Positions 51,689 through 61,581 of a stretch of DNA of 64,000 bases are shown here, piece by piece (position 1 is the stretch's first letter; each line of letters begins with the position of its first letter). Position numbers and translations under genes: made by a program. The stretch spans positions 62,001-126,000 of the forward strand of contig JAIQFV010000011.1 of assembly GCA_020073085.1 (NCBI GenBank). Direction: 5' to 3'. The DNA is from Terriglobia bacterium (GTDB lineage Bacteria; Acidobacteriota; Terriglobia; JAIQFV01). Under the pieces are notes generated by a model. That model saw only the letters and a program-made list of their open reading frames with translations. It was not told where the DNA came from and searched no databases.

Positions 51689-52849
51689 TCACTTCTCCAC
51701 CAACTCCATCACGTGCCCGTCCGGATCCCTCACCAGGAAACCTCGGCGGAATCCCAGTTTCGTGTCCGGCAGGGCGATCAACCCGGAAGAGACTAGCTTG
51801 AATTTCCCGGGAACCAAACTGCGGAAGGCTGACTCCGTATCGGGGGTGATCAGCTTGGTCTGCCAATGAATCAGGTCGTTGGATCGCTCGTCGGCGGGTT
51901 TCGCTCTTCCGCCTCGCGGTGCAAGGTATTCCAGAAACTCAATTCCCGGTCCCGAGGGGGCGCGGAGGCTGGTGATCCTCAGATGCGCCCCGAATACATT
52001 GTTCAGGTGTTCCTGCTCATCTCCATAATTCTCACTTTCGCCGGCGACCCGAAACCCGAGGAATCCCTGGTAGAACTTCAGGCTTGCTTCGGTGTCGATA
52101 ACGACGATGGCGGTGTGGTCAATGCCCAGGAATAAAGCCTCACTGGCCCGATGCCACTTTGAATCGCCTTTGTCGGGAGGGAATTGGAGAATCTCGAGCA
52201 CGTGCCGGTCGGGATCCTTGAAGTAGAAAGCGCGAATTCCGCCGGCCTCCTTGTTCCAATCAGGCAGGCGCTGGGGCCCGGAGGAGGCATGTTCAACTTT
52301 GTTCTGTCGCAGCCATTGATAGGCGCGGTCCATGTCATTCGTGATGATCGCGATATGCTGGAACCATCGGTCGTTGCTGCGGGAATCCTCGGGAATGGCT
52401 CGCCCCCGGGGCGCGAGATATTCAGTCAACTCGATGAACTCTTCACCCAACTTCATCCGGACGACTCGCATCCTCACTCCGAACAGTCCTACGAGATGTT
52501 CGTAGTCGCTTCCGGCGACCTCCACGTCGGAAACCTTTTCGAACCGGAGAACCTTGGAGTAAAACTCGACCGAGCGGTCCATGTCGGCGACGGTCATTCC
52601 CACGGCATCGACGCCGATGATCGAGAGGGGGAGGGGGCGGGGAGACGGGCTCGCGGGAGCCGCAATTCCTCCTCCTTGGCGTCCGTCGCTCCCCGCCTTA
52701 AGGTGAGACTGAGAGGCCCTGTATGAAAATGGCCACAAGAGTCCGAGAAGGATCCAAACAGGAAAAAGGACCAAGCCCGCAGAACGACCCCACGACGTTC
52801 TTCCAAGCGCGAGTTTGTCAGGCTGGGTCATTTGATTCTCCGGTGTCAT
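51689..52849 (-). CDS. Exported two-domain VOC (glyoxalase-fold) protein
   Basis: 386 residues. An N-terminal membrane segment (about 24-44, SAGLVLFPVWILLGLLWPF) is followed by a Pro/Ser linker and two VOC domains. The first is IGVDAVGMTVADMDRSVEFYSKVLRF to DPDRHVLEILQFP. The second is IDHTAIVVIDTEASLKFYQGFLGF to VRDPDGHVMELVEK. Each carries an EFIELTEYLAPRGR or GIEFLEYLAPRGGRAKP segment, showing internal duplication. Envelope location is unusual for this fold. It lies 12 bases downstream of the GMC oxidoreductase stop and may be co-transcribed with it. Confidence 0.85.
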   Translation of the reverse strand: MTPENQMTQPDKLALGRTSWGRSAGLVLFPVWILLGLLWPFSYRASQSHLKAGSDGRQGGGIAAPASPSPRPLPLSIIGVDAVGMTVADMDRSVEFYSKVLRFEKVSDVEVAGSDYEHLVGLFGVRMRVVRMKLGEEFIELTEYLAPRGRAIPEDSRSNDRWFQHIAIITNDMDRAYQWLRQNKVEHASSGPQRLPDWNKEAGGIRAFYFKDPDRHVLEILQFPPDKGDSKWHRASEALFLGIDHTAIVVIDTEASLKFYQGFLGFRVAGESENYGDEQEHLNNVFGAHLRITSLRAPSGPGIEFLEYLAPRGGRAKPADERSNDLIHWQTKLITPDTESAFRSLVPGKFKLVSSGLIALPDTKLGFRRGFLVRDPDGHVMELVEK

Positions 52850-52861
52850 CGCTAGTGTCCT

Positions 52862-54433
52862 TTAACCTAATCTCCCGATCAGATGGTCACCAACGCGCAG
52901 AGCATTGGCCATGATGGTCAACCCGGGGTTGACCGCCCCGCTCGATGGAAAGAAGCTCGCGTCCACGACATACAGGTTGTCGAGTTCGTGCGCCTTGCAA
53001 TTGGCGTCCAGCGCGGAGGTCCGCGGATCCCGACCAAACCGGATCGTCCCGTTCTGGTGGGCGACACCGGCCAGAGGAATGCGCTGACCCACATAGAGGT
53101 TGTGGGAGAACAGTCCCTGATAGCACTCATGGCCATGGACAGAGCACTTGGTCTGCTGCTTCATGACGCCCTGAAGCTTGGCGATGAGCCGCTTGTGTCC
53201 TTCTTCATTGTTCACTTTGTAGGAAAGAACGATTTTCCCGTCGCGATCCACGGTCACGCGGTTCTCCGGGTCCGGCAAATCCTCGGACGTGAGCCAGAAA
53301 TCGAGCGAGTGGTTGGCCATAATCTCAAGGGTAAAACCCGGCGCAATGGCCGGCGCCCCTGCTTTGAGGGTGTCCCGGTCCAGTTTGCCGACAAAAGAGA
53401 TGTGGCCCATGGGGAATTCCCACTCCTTGGAGCCCAGGTAGAAATCATTTACTGACAAGGTCTTCTGGAAGATCGTAGGATTCAGACACTTTGAAATTGC
53501 CATTAGCACAGAGTTGACGTGCCCCATGTAGTGGCGTCCGACGACGTCGGAGCAGTTGGCCAGCCCGTGCGGATGCTTGTCGTTGGCGGAGCGCAACAGC
53601 AGCGCCGCGGAGTTGATGGCTCCACACGAAACGACCACAACGTCGGCAGAGAATTTATTCTTCGAGCCATGGTGTTCGATCCAAACGCCTGTGACCTCGC
53701 GACCGGAAGGACTGGTCTCGAGACGGGAAACGTAGGCATTGGTCATGAGAGTGACATTGGAATGATTGAGTGCAGGGTCCACACTCACTACCTGCGCGTC
53801 CGATTTCGCATACACCAGGCAAGGGTACCCGTCACAGGTGTTGCAGCGGATGCATCGGCTCGTCCGCGGGTTCTTCTCGTCCAGCATGACCCCCAAGGGA
53901 GTGTGGAATGGCTTGAGGCCGAGGTTTGCAAAGTCGTCACTCAGCAGTTGCATGCGAGGCTCGTGACTGACCGGCGGATGAGGGAAAGGGCCAGTCGCCG
54001 CGGGTTCGGTGGGGTCTTCACCCCGCTGGCCGTGAACCTGGTAGAGGTGCTCGGCCTGAGTGTAATAAGGCTCCAGGTCTTCGTATGAAATGGGCCAAGC
54101 CGGAGAGACTCCGCTGTGGTGGCGGATTTCTCCGAAGTCTTCTTTACGAAGGCGGAACAGCGCGGCCCCGTAAAACTTGGTGTTGCCGCCAACACAATAA
54201 TTGGTGTGGGGATGAAGCTCCTTCCCATCCCGGTCGCGCCAGATTTCCTTGGTCTGGTACTTTCCTTGAGCGTTGACCGCGATTGAACTCCAGTTGTCTT
54301 TTTCACGGGGCACATAATCGCCGCGCTCGAGTAACAGGACGCGCTTGCCCGAAGGAGCCAGCTTGGCAGCCAGCGTCCCACCTCCCGCGCCGGTCCCGAT
54401 GATGATCACGTCGTAATGAGTGTCATTTGGCAT
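52862..54433 (-). CDS. GMC-family FAD-dependent oxidoreductase
   Basis: 523 residues. YDVIIIGTGAGGGTLAAKLAP is the FAD site (residues about 8-28, partly shown), CVGGNTKFYGAALFRLR the GMC motif, and VVDASFFPSSGAVNPGLTIMANALRVGDHL (in parts) the C-terminal signature. A cluster CIRCNTCDGYPC suggests an iron-sulfur or structural site, as seen in some sugar or alcohol dehydrogenases of the family. It oxidises an alcohol group of a sugar or sterol-like substrate. The start at 54433 with GGGGGAAA upstream is preferred to a 71-codon extension. It lies 180 bases after an orphan ECF sigma gene. Confidence 0.88.
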   Translation of the reverse strand: MPNDTHYDVIIIGTGAGGGTLAAKLAPSGKRVLLLERGDYVPREKDNWSSIAVNAQGKYQTKEIWRDRDGKELHPHTNYCVGGNTKFYGAALFRLRKEDFGEIRHHSGVSPAWPISYEDLEPYYTQAEHLYQVHGQRGEDPTEPAATGPFPHPPVSHEPRMQLLSDDFANLGLKPFHTPLGVMLDEKNPRTSRCIRCNTCDGYPCLVYAKSDAQVVSVDPALNHSNVTLMTNAYVSRLETSPSGREVTGVWIEHHGSKNKFSADVVVVSCGAINSAALLLRSANDKHPHGLANCSDVVGRHYMGHVNSVLMAISKCLNPTIFQKTLSVNDFYLGSKEWEFPMGHISFVGKLDRDTLKAGAPAIAPGFTLEIMANHSLDFWLTSEDLPDPENRVTVDRDGKIVLSYKVNNEEGHKRLIAKLQGVMKQQTKCSVHGHECYQGLFSHNLYVGQRIPLAGVAHQNGTIRFGRDPRTSALDANCKAHELDNLYVVDASFFPSSGAVNPGLTIMANALRVGDHLIGRLG

Positions 54434-54612
54434 ATTTTCCCCCAGAATTTTAGTGGCCAGGTATTCGCCTTCCGGAGTCGCGCCCGGTGTGTGGAATAAG
54501 ACCAGGGAATTGCTGTTTGAATCTGGATGACCTGTTCGTTCAGGCCTTAAATCCCGGCGGGTCGAAGAATTATTCCGGCCCGTCAAGAAAAATGGATATT
54601 CAATCGGTTCGC

Positions 54613-55173
54613 TCAGAGTGCTTGGGCCATGCTGAGGGGTGGGCATGTGGGAGGCGTGAGTCTTGTCAGCTGACTTCTCAGCAATTGTCTTCCACGGCTG
54701 AGCCGCGACATCACCGTCCCTGCAGGAATCCCGAGGGTGTCCTGGATTTCCTTGTAGCTGAATTCGTAAACGTCGGACAGCAGGACCACCTCGCGATATG
54801 GCGCGGGAATCTCTTTGAATGCAGCCAGGACATCAGCGTCGGTAATGTTCTCGGCAACGGGCGGCTCATACACCAGGAGCTCTTCAAGGTTCACTTCCTC
54901 GTCCTTCACTAGGTTGAGGCGATACCACTTTCTGCGGTGATGATCGATGACATGAAACATGATCTTAAACAGCCATGCCCTGCAATTCGTCCCCGTCTCG
55001 AAGCGATGAAAGGACTTCCAGGCCTGTAAAAACGTTTCCTGGACTACATCTTCAGCTTCTGTTGGGTTTCGAAGAATAGAGGACGCCGCCCGGTAGAGAT
55101 CATTCATATGGGGGAGGGCCGTCGCTTCAAAGGTTCCCAGGTCGACCGAGTTTTCATTTTTTTCCGGTGACAT
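54613..55173 (-). CDS. ECF RNA polymerase sigma factor (orphan, SigE/RpoE-like)
   Basis: 186 residues. Region 2: LYRAASSILRNPTEAEDVVQETFLQAWKSF with the core-binding and -10 melting helices, then CRAWLFKIMFHVIDHHRR. Region 4: IPAPYREVVLLSDVYEFSYKEIQDTLGIPAGTVMSRLSRGR (read in parts). AGGAGG precedes the ATG. No anti-sigma gene adjoins it. The zinc-finger anti-sigma gene at 36057 is an orphan of the type that normally pairs with such factors. The GMC gene follows on the same strand. Confidence 0.9.
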   Translation of the reverse strand: MSPEKNENSVDLGTFEATALPHMNDLYRAASSILRNPTEAEDVVQETFLQAWKSFHRFETGTNCRAWLFKIMFHVIDHHRRKWYRLNLVKDEEVNLEELLVYEPPVAENITDADVLAAFKEIPAPYREVVLLSDVYEFSYKEIQDTLGIPAGTVMSRLSRGRQLLRSQLTRLTPPTCPPLSMAQAL

Positions 55174-55341: not shown

Positions 55342-55608
55342 TCAGGCCCTGTCATCTTTGAGTTGCTCTGTCAGGAGTGGCGGACAGTTCACCAGGGTGA
55401 CTACAAGTCCATTCATTTTCCGTAGCAGCGCGATTGCTTCCCGGTCCATAAAGGTGACCTCTGCCACATCCAGACTGACGCTTCGACCGTGCGAGAATAC
55501 TTCTTCGCAGACTGTTCTTAACTCGGCCACCCAGGGACCAATAACTCTGCCTTCAAGGCGAAGGGTTGTAACCTTCTCTGTCCGATCAGCGATTGATATC
55601 TTGAGCAA
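55342..55608 (-). CDS. STAS-domain protein (anti-sigma-antagonist fold)
   Basis: 88 residues from a TTG start with GGGAG seven bases upstream. The STAS fold: VTTLRLEGRVIGPWVAELRTVCEEV, VSLDVAEVTFMDREAIALLRKMNGLVVTLVNC (read in parts). The family phospho-acceptor Ser is replaced by Asp-Arg (FMDREAI), so phosphorylation control of the classical kind is unlikely. An ATG at 55677 would start upstream of the sigma-54 promoter and is rejected. Expression is probably driven by the giant regulator encoded next to it. Confidence 0.82.
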   Translation of the reverse strand: MLKISIADRTEKVTTLRLEGRVIGPWVAELRTVCEEVFSHGRSVSLDVAEVTFMDREAIALLRKMNGLVVTLVNCPPLLTEQLKDDRA

Positions 55609-55611
55609 ATT

Positions 55612-55619
55612 GATAACTC
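55612..55619 (-). promoter_or_regulatory. Ribosome binding site that fixes the TTG start of the STAS gene
   Basis: AAGGGAG lies four to eight bases before the TTG at 55608, downstream of the sigma-54 -12 box. No equally placed site precedes the ATG at 55677. Confidence 0.6.
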
Positions 55620-55638
55620 CCTTCTCAAGTTCTAAGTA

Positions 55639-55658
55639 TGGCAAGACCATAGCCAAAC
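55639..55658 (-). promoter_or_regulatory. Sigma-54 promoter of the STAS gene
   Basis: On the minus strand TTTGGCTATGGTCTTGCC has TTGGC and TTGC with exactly 10 bases between GG and GC. The start would be near 55629, leaving a leader of about 21 bases before the TTG start codon. This is the clearest -24/-12 element in the window. Confidence 0.75.
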
Positions 55659-55740
55659 TCACATCTCCGGCATTCAATTTGTTAAGCTATTTATTTAAAA
55701 TAATTTAATGACACAATGGAGGAAGAATGAGCTTCTACAT

Positions 55741-55760
55741 TTCCACGAAATATCGTGGAA
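55741..55760. promoter_or_regulatory. 20-bp palindrome, candidate enhancer site for the sigma-54 activator
   Basis: TTCCACGAAATATCGTGGAA has 8-bp perfect arms. It lies about 111-131 bases upstream of the predicted STAS start site, the usual distance of an upstream activator site. A near copy (ACGAAATATCGTGG) recurs at 55995-56008 across the end of the regulator gene. Confidence 0.6.
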
Positions 55761-55992
55761 TGAATGAAATGCCTCGTGGTAATGACCTTCCGGGTGGCCT
55801 CTGAGATCCGATCAGACTTAGAGGTCAGCCCGACTTGAGTAAGCGGACATGTCCATCGTATGCGTCGGAGATTAAGTCCATTATACTATTGTTAATAAAC
55901 AAGTTAATTCTTGTTAATAAGGGCGCGATGTCAGAGCCGTTTAAACGTGGAAGTCACAAGTTAGGGGGGATTTCGGAACCCGTAGGTGTGAA
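55761..55992. other. AT-rich spacer between the STAS gene control region and the giant regulator gene
   Basis: No gene supported. It contains runs such as TTGTTAATAAACAAG at about 55889. The low GC content is suited to DNA bending between enhancer and promoter. Confidence 0.4.
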
Positions 55993-58900
55993 CTACGAAA
56001 TATCGTGGGGTGATCGCCGGATGCCTAGCTTCTTCATTCGGCTTCGGAGGGTATTGGGATGGAGATTGAGGAGCTTGGCCGCACCTTTCGCTCCCTCAAT
56101 GACACCGCCTGCTTCCTCAAGGACCGTGAGTATATGATGACGTTCTATCTCTTCGAGTGTAAGCGTTTTCCCGTTCGTGGCCGATGTTATCGGCGAACCT
56201 TGAAGCGAAGAGGCAGCGGGGACCTCCGCGGACAGGCTTGGCGCAAAATGAGAATTGGAAATTGGCAAGAAATCCTCACCCAGGGCCAGGGCCGACCCTT
56301 GTGAAAGGACGACGGCCCGCTCGATGATGTTTTGAAGTTCCCGGATGTTACCGGGCCATGAATAATGCACTAAGCGATGCATCGTCTCCTGGGCCACGGA
56401 TCGGACGCTCTTGCCGAACTCCTTCGAATAGCGAGACACAAAGAACATGACCAGCTGGGGGATATCTGTTTGTCGGTCGCGAAGCGGAGGCACTTTGAGG
56501 GGAAACACGTTCAGCCTGTAATAGAGGTCGGAGCGGAATCTCCCCGCCTGGACGGCGTCTTCCAGATCCCGGTTGGTGGCGGCTATCACCCGCACATCCA
56601 CGCGGACTGACCGGCTGCTCCCCACCGGCTCAAATTCATGTTCCTGGAGGACCCGCAGCAGCTTGACTTGCGTTTCCAAAGGCAATTCGCCAACTTCGTC
56701 CAGAAAGATGGTCCCCCCGTCGGCGAGTTCAAATCGTCCGATGCGCCTCTCGAGGGCGCCGGTGAAAGCCCCTTTCACATGGCCGAAGAGCTCACTCTCG
56801 ACCAAGCCGGCCGAGATTGCGCTGCAGTTCACTTTGACGAGGGGACGATCCTTGCGCAGGCTGCAGTTGTGGATCGCCCGGGCTATCAATTCCTTCCCGG
56901 TCCCCGTCTCACCACAAATCAGGACCGTGGAAGTCGTGGGCGCCACCTGCTCCAGGTTTCGAAGGAGATCGAGCAGGGCAGGGCTGCTGCCGACAATCTC
57001 TTCAAAGTCATGCTCCCGGCGGATTTCTTCCTGGAGGTAAACATTTTCGGCTTCGAGCCTGTTCTTCAAGGCCCCAACCTCCGCCAGGGCGAGGCGCAAC
57101 TCATCCTCGGCCGACCGTCGGCGGGCAACTTCATGTCGCATTTCTTCGTAGAGGCGCGCTTTTTCAAGGGCGATTGCGGCGGTGGAGGAAAGGATCCGCA
57201 TCATCTCAATCCGCCCCGGCGTGAATGCTCCGCTCGTCAGGTTGTTTTCGAGATAGAGGATTCCACTGAGCTTTCCCTGATCCACCACCGGAACGCAGAG
57301 AACCGATTTCGGCCGGACCGACGCGATGTACGGATCGTTGGCAAATCGCTCATCGGCGGTCGCATCATCAATGACCACGCTTTCGCCTGTTTTCCGCACA
57401 TACCGGACGACCGCACGGGCCAGGTTGGCGGATTGCTCCATGGGAACGGATTGCCGGACGCGTATTTCCTGAAGGTCGAGCGCACCCTCGGCTTCGATCA
57501 CAAGTCTCCCCTCCTCTTCTCTGAGAAAAATCCCCCGGCGTGCACCGGCGTTTTCCAAGGCGATCTTCATCAGATTGTGGAGAAGGCCGTCCAACTCGAT
57601 CTCGACGGTGATGGCTCGCGAGGCTTTCAAGACGCTATTGATGTCTAATGAGGCTGTCTCTCCGGTCTCGAAATCAGGTTGTCTGGCGGAGGTTTTCTCG
57701 CCCAACAGATCGCTGTGCTTTTGCTCCATGGATCTGACTTTACCCATGGCACCCCATTTGGAATAAGCATCCCGCGCCTCAGCTAGAAGTGCCGCGGCGG
57801 TCTCTTTTCGCCCCCGGCCCAGCAGGAACTTGGCGAGCAGCTCTTTGCCCAGGGCACTGTTTTGAAGACTTTCCACCTCCCGGGCGTATTGAATGGCCTT
57901 TTCATAGGATTCCATCGCCTCCGAAGTGTGTCCCCGCAAGCGTTCGATCTCGGCCGTCAACAGCAACCAAAAGCAGCGAAAATTCTCCGGACAGTTTTCG
58001 GCCAGGATCCTCAGGGATTCCTGCTGCTTGAACAGTTGGTCCAGGGAACGATCCCGGTCCGGCCCTCCAGGAAGCGGGTAACATGATGCCAGCGTCAGGC
58101 CAATCCAAAAGTCCAGGACGGGAGGCCAGATGGTTCCACCCAGCGAATGTGCCACCCGTTGCAGGTGGGAAGCCGCCTCCGTGGCCTTTCCATATTCCTC
58201 GAGGTTGAAATACAGGTGGAGCTTCGCCAGATGATAAAAGGTCATGAAGAAGGGATTGGATTCATAAGTCCGGTGATAATCCTCTTCGTTGAACGTCTCA
58301 TCAGAAAGCGAGAACATGTCCCGGGTCAGCCCTTGGAGGGCCCGGGCCCAATTCAGGATGATCTTTTGTGCATCCACAAAGCTGGTCATCTTTAACTTGT
58401 TGATGACGGCAAGATTCGGGGAATAATCGCGGATAAAACGGCCCAGATCGCGGCTGATCAACAGGGCATGCCAACTCTCGGAGAAAACCGCATAGTTCGC
58501 ATAAGTGAAGTCACCTGTCTCAAAACCACTCCGGAAGGCCACCTGAGAATGAGGCAGGCAGGTTTCCATGGGCCGGCGCCAGATGTTCACATGGGCCTGG
58601 AACTGTTGGTGAATCTTGGCTCTCAGCCTGGGATCATTGAAGCGTTCGTTCACACTGAGTGCCAGCCGTCCGAATTCATACCCGGACTTGTAGTCTCCCC
58701 GAACCGGTCCGACCGTAATGGCGTGAGTCACGTATCCATAGGCAGAGTCCTCGGTGTTCCCATGGACCAGTGAAAGTCGCACCATAGTGGCGGAAATCAG
58801 GCGTGTGAGGAGTTGGTCTCCGACCAGATAAGCCGATGGCCACAGAGCGGTCAGGATCTTCATGACCATGCGGATCTCGGGGTCAGTCATTGTCGGGAGA

Positions 58901-61581
58901 TCGATGAGGGAGTCGATGGTCCTCGCTCCCCGGAGCTTCTGAATGGCCTCCACCTCCGCTTCCAGCGCAGCCTCCTTCTCCTCGGTCCGGTCGGGAAACA
59001 GGACCTCGAACAGTGCGAGCCCTTCCCGGCCACTGGCGATTGCCTCCAGATACCGCGACATATTTTCGTACTGGACGATTCTCAAGCTGTGAACCCGGGC
59101 TTTGTCGAGCCGCGTCCCTGCCCGCTTCAGAAGTTGCTCAAAATGCAGTTCCGACCACTGGAAGTCTCCGCAAAGATACTCACTTTCCGCCCTTTCCAGG
59201 TGCAGCCCGAGCATCAAGGCATAATCCGAGCTCCAATAGCCCTCTTCCAAGAGGGCTATTCCCTGGTTGAAATAGTTGAGGGCCGCCTGATAGGCCGTCG
59301 ACGATTTGGCCTTTCGTCCCGCGTCGAGATTAAGCTTCGCGAGAGTCACTCGCTCCTCCCCGTCGTCGATGAGATTTCTGCCGAGGTTGAGATGGTGGAC
59401 CACATCGAATATTTTTTCCTCGGCGAGAGAGGCAGTTCCCCGATTCAGAAGCAGCCGACCGACGGTCAAATGGACGAGGTTTCTCCGATCTTCGGGGATC
59501 AGGCTGTACGCCGCGAGCTGCACCCGATCATGCAGGAACGTAAAAGTGGGTGCTGCAGGCAAGGGCGGGTCCAACACGCTGATCTCGGAGACCTCGAAGG
59601 AGTCTGCCGATGAAAGGATCAATCCCTCCTCGCGTGCTTCACGGAGATCGGCAGCCACCTTCCCGGGGTCTTGCTCGCTGATGATCGCCAGCGTCTCGCC
59701 ATCAAATGTATTTCCGATACACGAGGCCAGAGTCAGGGCATGTTGCGACTGGGGAGAGAGTTTTCGAATCTTTCGTGTCATCAGGTCGATGACGTTATCG
59801 GTCATGCCGGCATTCGCGATCGCCTCCAGCTGGTAATTCCATCGGTTCAGCTCGTAGTCGAACTTGAGGAAGCCCTCCTGTCTGAGCATTTTCAAAAACT
59901 GTAGAACGAAGAAAGGATTTCCTCCGGTCTTGTCCAAAAGGAGGCGGGCGAGAGGAGCGACTTCAGACAGGTCCCCGTGAAGAGTGTCGCGGATTAGGAA
60001 CATGAGGTCTCCAATCTTCAGCGGGCCCAAGAGGACGCGGTGAAGCTGAGCTCCGGCCTGAGCCAGGGCGCTCAACGTGCGCGTGAGGGGGTGTCCCTCG
60101 TCGACCTCGTTGTCGCGATAGGCACCGATCAGCAACAGGTGGTGAACATCGGGGCCCGTCAGGAAGGGCTGGAGAAGACTCAAGGTCGCGGCATCGGCCC
60201 ACTGCAGGTCGTCAAGGAACACCACCAGGGGATGCTCCGGCTGAGCGAGGGCCCCCACAAAGTTCTGAAACGCCATTTGAAACCGGTTTAAGGCTTCTGT
60301 GGGACCGAGGGCGGGCACGGGCGTCTGCTTGCCCACAATCAATTCGACTTCAGGGAGGACCTCAGCGATTACCCCTCCGTTGTTTCCCAGGGCTTCCTGG
60401 AGGCGCGAACGGAACATCGAGAGCCGCTCTTCGCTCTCGGTCAATAACTGATGGATCAATCCTCGAAACGCCTGGATCAATGCGCCATGAGGGATGTTTC
60501 GAACAATCTGGTCAAACTTGCCTGTAATGAAGTATCCCCGCTGGCGGACAATCGGCTTGTACAACTCCTGGATCAACGAGGTTTTACCGATTCCGGAATA
60601 TCCGCACACCAGGATCAATGCGTTGGGCCCTCCGCAGGTGCGGTCAAAGGCATCCACCAGGGCCTTGACTTCGTGATCCCGGCCATAGAGCTTTTGAGGG
60701 ATGATGAATTGGTCCGAAACATCATGCTGGCCGAGTGGGAAGGGAGCGATGAAATGGTGAGAATTCCATTCTTGGAGGCAATGGCTCAAATCTTGTTTCA
60801 ATCCAGGCGCACTTTGGTATCGTTCCTCGGCGGTCTTGGCCAGCAACTTCATGACGATGTCTGAAATGGACCGGGGAATTTCAGGATTGACCTCCCCGGG
60901 TGGAGGCGGAATCTTCGCGATGTGCCCGTGAATCAATTCAAGGGGATCCGTCGCTGGGAACGGAAGCGTCCCGGTGAGGCACTCATAAAGGATGACTCCC
61001 AGGGAGTAGAAATCGGTGCGATAGTCGGTTCCCCGGTTCATCCGACCTGTTTGTTCGGGTGAAATGTAAGCCAGCGAGCTGATGAATGAAGTTGGGGGAA
61101 GAGGTGCGGTGGCCTCACCGCCGGGTCGTGAAGCAGACAGAAAATCGCCGATCTCCACCTCCTGGTTCGCCGGATTGACGAGGATACCCGGGGAAGTGAG
61201 GTTTCTATGGATGACATCCCGCCGATGCAACTCGGCCAGGATGGTTGACAGTTTGATGCCAAGCTTGAGTACACATTCCGGATCGTGCCTGAGCGAATCG
61301 AAGAGTCTCGGAAGGGGAAAGCCGCCCCGGTCCTCCATGATCAGGCCGCACGTCTCTTCCTGGCGGACGATTTCTAAAACCCTCGGGACACCGGGGAAAT
61401 CGAGTTCGCCCAGAATCCCGAATTCCCGTTCGAGCGACTGAACATCCGCGACTCGCGGGGGATTGCCTCTTGGCGTTTTGACAAGAACGGTCTGTTGATC
61501 TAGGTCCCGGCGTCCACGATACAGAACGTGCCGATCCGACAGCGAGAGTTCTTCGATGACCTCGATACCGAAAAGCGTCAT
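55993..61581 (-). CDS. Giant regulator: pseudokinase, STAND-type ATPase, GAF, sigma-54 activator and Fis HTH
   Basis: 1862 residues. 1-270: Ser/Thr kinase fold with K35 and HRN-L-T-S-P-G (125-132) where active kinases have HRD-L-K-P-x-N, and DFL instead of DFG (146-148). About 300-800: AAA/STAND NTPase (CGYSGIGKTSL; LVVFLDDLQWADAATLSLL). About 800-1290: helical TPR-like region. About 1310-1480: GAF domain. About 1525-1760: sigma-54 AAA+ with GETGTGKE and GHVKGAFTGA. The end is a Fis-type HTH (GAKGAAKLLNLHPNTLRSRM). The kinase head lacks catalytic residues. It should activate sigma-54 promoters, most plausibly that of the adjacent STAS gene. The start at 61581 is the first ATG of the fold. Confidence 0.88.
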   Translation of the reverse strand: MTLFGIEVIEELSLSDRHVLYRGRRDLDQQTVLVKTPRGNPPRVADVQSLEREFGILGELDFPGVPRVLEIVRQEETCGLIMEDRGGFPLPRLFDSLRHDPECVLKLGIKLSTILAELHRRDVIHRNLTSPGILVNPANQEVEIGDFLSASRPGGEATAPLPPTSFISSLAYISPEQTGRMNRGTDYRTDFYSLGVILYECLTGTLPFPATDPLELIHGHIAKIPPPPGEVNPEIPRSISDIVMKLLAKTAEERYQSAPGLKQDLSHCLQEWNSHHFIAPFPLGQHDVSDQFIIPQKLYGRDHEVKALVDAFDRTCGGPNALILVCGYSGIGKTSLIQELYKPIVRQRGYFITGKFDQIVRNIPHGALIQAFRGLIHQLLTESEERLSMFRSRLQEALGNNGGVIAEVLPEVELIVGKQTPVPALGPTEALNRFQMAFQNFVGALAQPEHPLVVFLDDLQWADAATLSLLQPFLTGPDVHHLLLIGAYRDNEVDEGHPLTRTLSALAQAGAQLHRVLLGPLKIGDLMFLIRDTLHGDLSEVAPLARLLLDKTGGNPFFVLQFLKMLRQEGFLKFDYELNRWNYQLEAIANAGMTDNVIDLMTRKIRKLSPQSQHALTLASCIGNTFDGETLAIISEQDPGKVAADLREAREEGLILSSADSFEVSEISVLDPPLPAAPTFTFLHDRVQLAAYSLIPEDRRNLVHLTVGRLLLNRGTASLAEEKIFDVVHHLNLGRNLIDDGEERVTLAKLNLDAGRKAKSSTAYQAALNYFNQGIALLEEGYWSSDYALMLGLHLERAESEYLCGDFQWSELHFEQLLKRAGTRLDKARVHSLRIVQYENMSRYLEAIASGREGLALFEVLFPDRTEEKEAALEAEVEAIQKLRGARTIDSLIDLPTMTDPEIRMVMKILTALWPSAYLVGDQLLTRLISATMVRLSLVHGNTEDSAYGYVTHAITVGPVRGDYKSGYEFGRLALSVNERFNDPRLRAKIHQQFQAHVNIWRRPMETCLPHSQVAFRSGFETGDFTYANYAVFSESWHALLISRDLGRFIRDYSPNLAVINKLKMTSFVDAQKIILNWARALQGLTRDMFSLSDETFNEEDYHRTYESNPFFMTFYHLAKLHLYFNLEEYGKATEAASHLQRVAHSLGGTIWPPVLDFWIGLTLASCYPLPGGPDRDRSLDQLFKQQESLRILAENCPENFRCFWLLLTAEIERLRGHTSEAMESYEKAIQYAREVESLQNSALGKELLAKFLLGRGRKETAAALLAEARDAYSKWGAMGKVRSMEQKHSDLLGEKTSARQPDFETGETASLDINSVLKASRAITVEIELDGLLHNLMKIALENAGARRGIFLREEEGRLVIEAEGALDLQEIRVRQSVPMEQSANLARAVVRYVRKTGESVVIDDATADERFANDPYIASVRPKSVLCVPVVDQGKLSGILYLENNLTSGAFTPGRIEMMRILSSTAAIALEKARLYEEMRHEVARRRSAEDELRLALAEVGALKNRLEAENVYLQEEIRREHDFEEIVGSSPALLDLLRNLEQVAPTTSTVLICGETGTGKELIARAIHNCSLRKDRPLVKVNCSAISAGLVESELFGHVKGAFTGALERRIGRFELADGGTIFLDEVGELPLETQVKLLRVLQEHEFEPVGSSRSVRVDVRVIAATNRDLEDAVQAGRFRSDLYYRLNVFPLKVPPLRDRQTDIPQLVMFFVSRYSKEFGKSVRSVAQETMHRLVHYSWPGNIRELQNIIERAVVLSQGSALALGEDFLPISNSHFAPSLSAEVPAASSLQGSPITSATNGKTLTLEEIERHHILTVLEEAGGVIEGAKGAAKLLNLHPNTLRSRMKKLGIRRSPHDIS

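Follow-up and report, generated by a model that had tools for sequence, protein, structure and literature searches.

In the 64,000-nucleotide stretch of soil Acidobacteriota (Terriglobia) DNA analyzed here (the window), a small gene with a STAS fold is likely to be under sigma-54-dependent control, with the neighboring enhancer-binding protein (EBP) as its activator. On the minus strand, the EBP gene, which has an operator-like site (O1) across its stop codon, is followed by a second such site (O2), a -24/-12 element, a ribosome-binding site, the STAS gene, and a gene for an ECF sigma factor. Other members of the class have this arrangement as well, which indicates that it is a recurrent module rather than a one-off. 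As judged from sequence, the EBP, STAS, and ECF genes appear to form a self-contained module that is scattered through Terriglobia, and the sigma-54 reading of this module is well supported.

Control region and activator of the STAS gene

The interval between the EBP gene (55993..61581, minus strand; 1862 aa) and the STAS gene is 384 bp long and non-coding. The -24/-12 element in this interval, TTGGCTATGGTCTTGC (55641..55656, minus strand), was recognized by its match to the consensus, its conservation in a genus-mate, and the enrichment of such elements across the class. Read from 55656 to 55641, its spacing is canonical, TTGGC-N7-TTGC (TGGC-N7-TTGC), and the predicted +1 of the STAS transcript is at about 55630. 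In the alignment with the genus-mate locus (JAIQFY010000031.1, from a Terriglobia MAG), both halves of the element are retained against an intergenic background identity of about 50%. The genome of the window has a single copy of rpoN. The ribosome-binding site GAGAAGGGAG (55617..55626, minus strand) is identical in the genus-mate, and the STAS gene behind it (55342..55608, minus strand; 88 aa) likely starts at TTG 55608. This start, which was placed according to the positions of the promoter and the ribosome-binding site, is in the same frame as an open reading frame (ORF) listed from 55677. The latter position lies upstream of the promoter and was rejected as the STAS start, since an ORF beginning there would traverse the promoter.

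With a score of 10.7 bits, the -24/-12 element of the window is among the weaker ones of its type, and three sigma-70-like matches are found at 55880-55934. Both observations would fit a chance match, in which case a sigma-70-type promoter or read-through out of the EBP gene would account for transcription of the STAS gene. However, these sigma-70-like matches, which lie upstream of 55677 where a sigma-70-type start had been named as the finding that would speak against sigma-54 control, are near the shuffle background (1.2 expected) and show no conservation in the genus-mate alignment. Moreover, 14 of 15 relatives have a -24/-12 element at a comparable distance. A chance match is highly improbable, and the sigma-54 control region proposed in the sequence-only reading is supported by the genus-mate footprint and by class-wide recurrence. 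We infer from these comparisons that the STAS gene depends on sigma-54.

The putative activator has the Pfam domain order Ser/Thr kinase-like, AAA_16, GAF, Sigma54_activat, and HTH_8, and was annotated from Pfam, NCBIfam, and kinase motifs. Its matches to PF00158 (5.6e-75) and PF02954 (1.6e-08) are those of an enhancer-binding protein. The HTH_8 domain contains LHPNTLRSRMKKLGI, and the protein ends in HDIS. The kinase domain is degenerate and probably inactive, because HRN replaces HRD and DFL replaces DFG (HRS and EFL in the genus-mate). With a probable pseudokinase at its N-terminus, this EBP is a fusion that also includes AAA_16 and a sigma-54 activator. The sensors vary across the type, with PAS and GAF in those scanned and kinase-AAA_16-GAF in the window.

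Recurrence in the class Terriglobia

A STAS profile search of about 399 genomes recovered 15 loci of the window's STAS type in 14 genomes, and this group is set apart from the remaining matches (E-values of 7e-28 or lower, with the next at 1e-17). When the C-terminal HTH of the EBPs in these loci (helix type LHPNTLR) was used as query, the same 14 genomes were recovered, without any other ahead of a drop from 7e-33 to 1e-28. Neither type was found alone in the approximately 399 genomes, a co-occurrence that gene adjacency makes partly automatic. Most members of the type went into building the profiles, such that the recovery of those members is expected; more weight falls on the absence of either type alone and on the EBP of G115, which was not part of the profile. 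In the G115 genome, the STAS and EBP genes are split between two contigs, each close to the end of its contig. The EBP type was defined by profile search, and a strict DNA pattern for the LHPNTLR helix gave three matches. A sigma-54 site was found in 14 of the 15 loci of this type (7.8 to 19.7 bits); the one locus with no promoter match, L148, is at a contig end. At the level of sequence, the co-occurrence of the EBP type with the STAS type upholds the earlier suggestion that the neighboring EBP is the likely activator.

For a broader comparison, 70 STAS loci were collected by profile searches in the class Terriglobia and from retrieved DNA stretches. The score matrix for sigma-54 sites was written by hand in advance of the scan, following the known consensus and without training, and sites with a score of 10 or higher were classified as strong. 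Strong sites were found in 35 of the 70 loci, which share ancestry and are not independent counts, whereas 2.4 would be expected by chance, as judged from random stretches drawn from these loci. Among these 35 sites, 28 end 22-36 nt ahead of the start codon. An EBP gene on the same strand ends within 1.5 kb upstream in at least 31 of 67 STAS loci, a count that misses some pairs (e.g., the contig C6 pair described below). Among the first 67 loci, the gene after STAS is an ECF gene in 13, a TolC-like gene in about 16, and a Crp/FNR gene in 11. The relatives with a Crp/FNR gene next are mostly without sigma-54 sites, and the sigma-54 rule thus does not extend to the whole STAS family. Open frames of some 550-600 aa harbor many of the STAS-family profile matches.

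The genome of the window contains three STAS paralogs. The second EBP-STAS pair of this genome (L115, G000 contig C6, 1000-9000; with L116) has the STAS gene directly behind the EBP gene. The contig C6 pair has its own palindrome (TTCGCCAATTGGCGAA) and its own sigma-54 element (TTGGAGCCTGAGTTGCA), both of which are retained in the genus-mate, and the gene after STAS in L115 encodes an MFS transporter. The third paralog (L112, G000 contig C30), as well as L113 and L114, has TTGGATTCAGGCGTGCA upstream and a TolC-like gene next; an EBP gene directly upstream was not found in these three loci.

Candidate operators at and beyond the EBP stop codon

O2 (TTCCACGATATTTCGTGGAA, 55741..55760, minus strand) is a palindrome that may serve as an upstream activating site, and its center lies approximately 120 bp upstream of the +1 predicted for STAS, as had been noted from the sequence. 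O1 (CCACGATATTTCGTAG, 55993..56008, minus strand) corresponds to the repeat of this palindrome that had been reported at the end of the activator gene; read from 56008 to 55993, it spans the last EBP codons and straddles the stop codon. The distance between O1 and O2 in the window is about 250 bp, unlike the 21 or 41-42 bp observed in relatives. Within the 5.79-Mb genome, CCACGANNNNTCGTGG occurs in one place, at O2. The search for further copies, which the sequence-only reading had recommended, showed that the 13-base core CACGAWATWTCGT is restricted to O1 and O2, and the same is true of the genus-mate. In the genus-mate alignment, 18 of 18 bases of O1 and 16 of 16 bases of the O2 core are unchanged (background identity 50%).

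Similar sites are found across the type. In every one of the 13 EBP genes for which the 3' end was reached, the stop codon is spanned by a site like CCACS-N6-SGTGG (two or fewer mismatches), and the typical form in relatives is CCACC-N6-CGTAG. Ten loci have a second operator-like site 21 or 41-42 bp further downstream. When at most one mismatch is allowed, operator-like sites are found in 12 of the 15 loci compared with 0.9 in shuffles, a figure that is post hoc because the pattern was generalized from these same loci. In L159 (G081), the EBP gene is 4.6 kb from the STAS gene, and operator-like pairs are found at both places. The EBP stop codon of this locus is inside the first site, and the remainder of the site continues outside the gene. 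Besides a GAF-like ORF and a response regulator gene, the interval between the two genes contains two small ORFs on the opposite strand that resemble a toxin-antitoxin pair. The LHPNTLR EBPs of genomes without the window's STAS type (L181, L182, and L184) have neither the tail nor O1. Selection on the DNA is favored by these two observations, namely that the L159 site outlasts the end of the gene and that LHPNTLR EBPs elsewhere lack the site.

Two other explanations for these sites were considered. The HxxS tail of the EBP may be kept for protein reasons, with O1 as a by-product, and the His residue is invariant in 13 EBPs. However, the codon for this His is always CAC, and the site extends beyond the stop codon (TAGTTC in most). 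Given also the part of the L159 site retained outside the gene and the lack of a tail site in the LHPNTLR EBPs of other genomes, this explanation is unlikely. The other possibility is that O1 and O2 act as RNA hairpins instead of DNA operators, by which the EBP mRNA would be attenuated or processed at its 3' end. RNA 3' ends often have palindromes near the stop codon, and O2 of the window can fold into an 8-bp stem with a 4-nt loop. However, a T-run is absent after O2, a terminator scan found no terminators on the minus strand, and O1 in most relatives (CCACC...CGTAG) would be poor in RNA pairing. The spacing of 21 or 41-42 bp between O1 and O2 suits the helical phasing of DNA sites, and in L159 sites are present beside the STAS promoter although the EBP gene is 4.6 kb away. 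Taken together, a role as RNA hairpins is quite improbable.

O1 and O2 are therefore best described as candidate operators, to which the EBP may bind. The earlier view of the palindrome as a likely operator gained support from footprint conservation, recurrence, and the co-occurrence of the EBP and STAS types. A common operator for every HTH type is not claimed. For EBP classes B, C, and D, an exact half-site search gave weak or no shared palindromes; single loci of other EBP types nonetheless have clear palindromes. In L060, which has a different EBP helix type, the palindromes TTCGCGATCTCGCGAA and TTCGCGAAGTTCGCGAA are located at -148 and -106 from the STAS start, 42 bp apart.

The STAS protein and its possible partners

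The STAS_2 Pfam match of the STAS product is under the cut-off (22.3 versus 29.2 bits). A profile of the STAS family matches SpoIIAA structures, and Foldseek finds SpoIIAA and RsbV with the predicted structure (pLDDT 86; best E-value of 8.8e-06; query TM-scores of 0.69-0.80 for the top-listed SpoIIAA/RsbV entries). In the window, MDREA stands in place of MDSSG, and D-R-E-A aligns with D-S57-S58-G of SpoIIAA. This alignment rules out the earlier interpretation that the phospho-site Ser is replaced by Asp-Arg, which was off by one residue: Glu occupies the Ser58 position, and the Asp corresponds to the conserved residue preceding it. Among 70 relatives, Ser is found at this position in none and an acidic residue in 44, suggesting that this family is without classical phospho-switching at the Ser58 site. 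The related claim of a constitutively active STAS protein is unsupported. In Vibrio fischeri SypA, an Asp mimic of the phospho-site is inactive (PMC4517449); by this precedent, Glu at the Ser58 position would resemble the inactive state, which makes constitutive activity the less likely reading.

The ECF gene (54613..55173, minus strand) encodes sigma-70 regions 2 and 4 only (Sigma70_r2 and Sigma70_r4_2 in Pfam; PF04542 and PF08281), with TIGR02937 of NCBIfam above cut-off. In the window's type, the gene after STAS is an ECF gene in 11 of 15 loci, a HisKA kinase gene in L156, L157, and, by resemblance, L154, and a metallophosphatase gene in L149. The idea that a sigma-54 cascade could feed into another sigma network thus stands in outline only, in that the next gene is an ECF gene here and in those 11 loci. 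The STAS and ECF genes may share one transcript, and the gap of 168 nt between them makes co-transcription less than certain. A GMC-family oxidoreductase ORF (52862..54646, minus strand; Pfam), with a likely start near 54433, is a possible further operon member. The start of this ORF overlaps the end of the ECF gene. The order of ECF gene, GMC oxidoreductase, and glyoxalase-like ORF (51689-55173 in the window) is the same in the genus-mate.

In the mechanism that we propose, the multi-domain sensor EBP would bind O1, at its own stop codon, and O2, further downstream, and the bound EBP would activate sigma-54-containing RNA polymerase at the -24/-12 element ahead of the STAS gene. The product would be a single-domain STAS protein that is unswitchable by serine phosphorylation at the classical site. 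With an ECF gene after STAS (a histidine kinase gene in some relatives), the signal may be relayed as a sigma-54-to-ECF cascade. As a tentative suggestion from gene neighborhood, the STAS protein may also act back on its own EBP in a feedback role. Action on the EBP is favored because it is the EBP-STAS pair that recurs across loci, with differing genes downstream. Equally tentatively, non-phosphorylatable STAS proteins may be dedicated EBP partners, in a widespread arrangement in which the EBP induces STAS and STAS acts back, with varied outputs (ECF, efflux, and kinases) and, in the window's type, an operator across the EBP stop codon.

Alternatively, the STAS protein may antagonize an anti-sigma factor and, by partner switching, release the ECF or another sigma factor. 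Its fold is nearest to those of SpoIIAA and RsbV, the ECF gene is adjoining in 11 of 15 loci, and the genome encodes three small HATPase_c_2 (RsbW-like) proteins, all on other contigs. However, no anti-sigma factor or anti-sigma kinase gene was seen beside the STAS or ECF gene in the window. Such adjacency is usual for STAS antagonists and not strictly required. In addition, Glu stands at the Ser58 position here, none of the 70 relatives has Ser there, and in many relatives the next gene is a TolC, Crp/FNR, or MFS gene, not one for a sigma factor. These features make a partner-switching role rather doubtful.

Sigma-54 control of a STAS-headed locus and of an ECF gene are already known separately. 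In V. fischeri, the STAS gene sypA is the first in a locus that is activated by the sigma-54-dependent SypG via an enhancer (PMC4517449; PMC3843225), and the window similarly has a single-domain STAS gene at the head of a putative sigma-54-regulated locus with an enhancer-like site. Unlike the window's STAS protein, which has Glu at a position that is never Ser in relatives, SypA is controlled by Ser56 phosphorylation via SypE (PMC4517449). Furthermore, SypG is a response regulator whereas the EBP of the window is a one-component sensor, and the syp locus makes polysaccharide whereas an ECF gene follows STAS in the window. In Pseudomonas syringae, sigma-54 and HrpRS drive the ECF gene hrpL, and HrpV inhibits HrpS (PMC5263251). 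The likeness lies in the use of sigma-54 and EBPs to drive an ECF gene, and the action of HrpV on HrpS may serve, by analogy, as a model for a STAS protein acting on its EBP (PMC5263251). However, the hrpL scheme as described has no STAS gene, concerns another regulon and phylum, and has no operator described at the stop codon of the activator. The window's STAS protein shares its fold with SpoIIAA and RsbV, but it lacks Ser at the Ser58 position and an adjacent SpoIIAB/RsbW gene, and it has a putative sigma-54 promoter and a local EBP.

Among the open-licence papers searched, nothing was found on STAS with sigma-54 in Acidobacteria, nor on a module in which EBP, STAS, and ECF genes are combined and an operator-like site spans the stop codon of the EBP gene, which is weak evidence of novelty; this regulatory module is apparently undescribed. 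Sigma-54, STAS proteins, and ECF factors, which are usually studied apart, come together here in a single compact module, found repeatedly in a large and poorly studied soil class. The operator sequences and the matched EBP types make the targets of these activators directly testable. If the STAS protein does act on the EBP, a well-known fold would thereby gain a new role.
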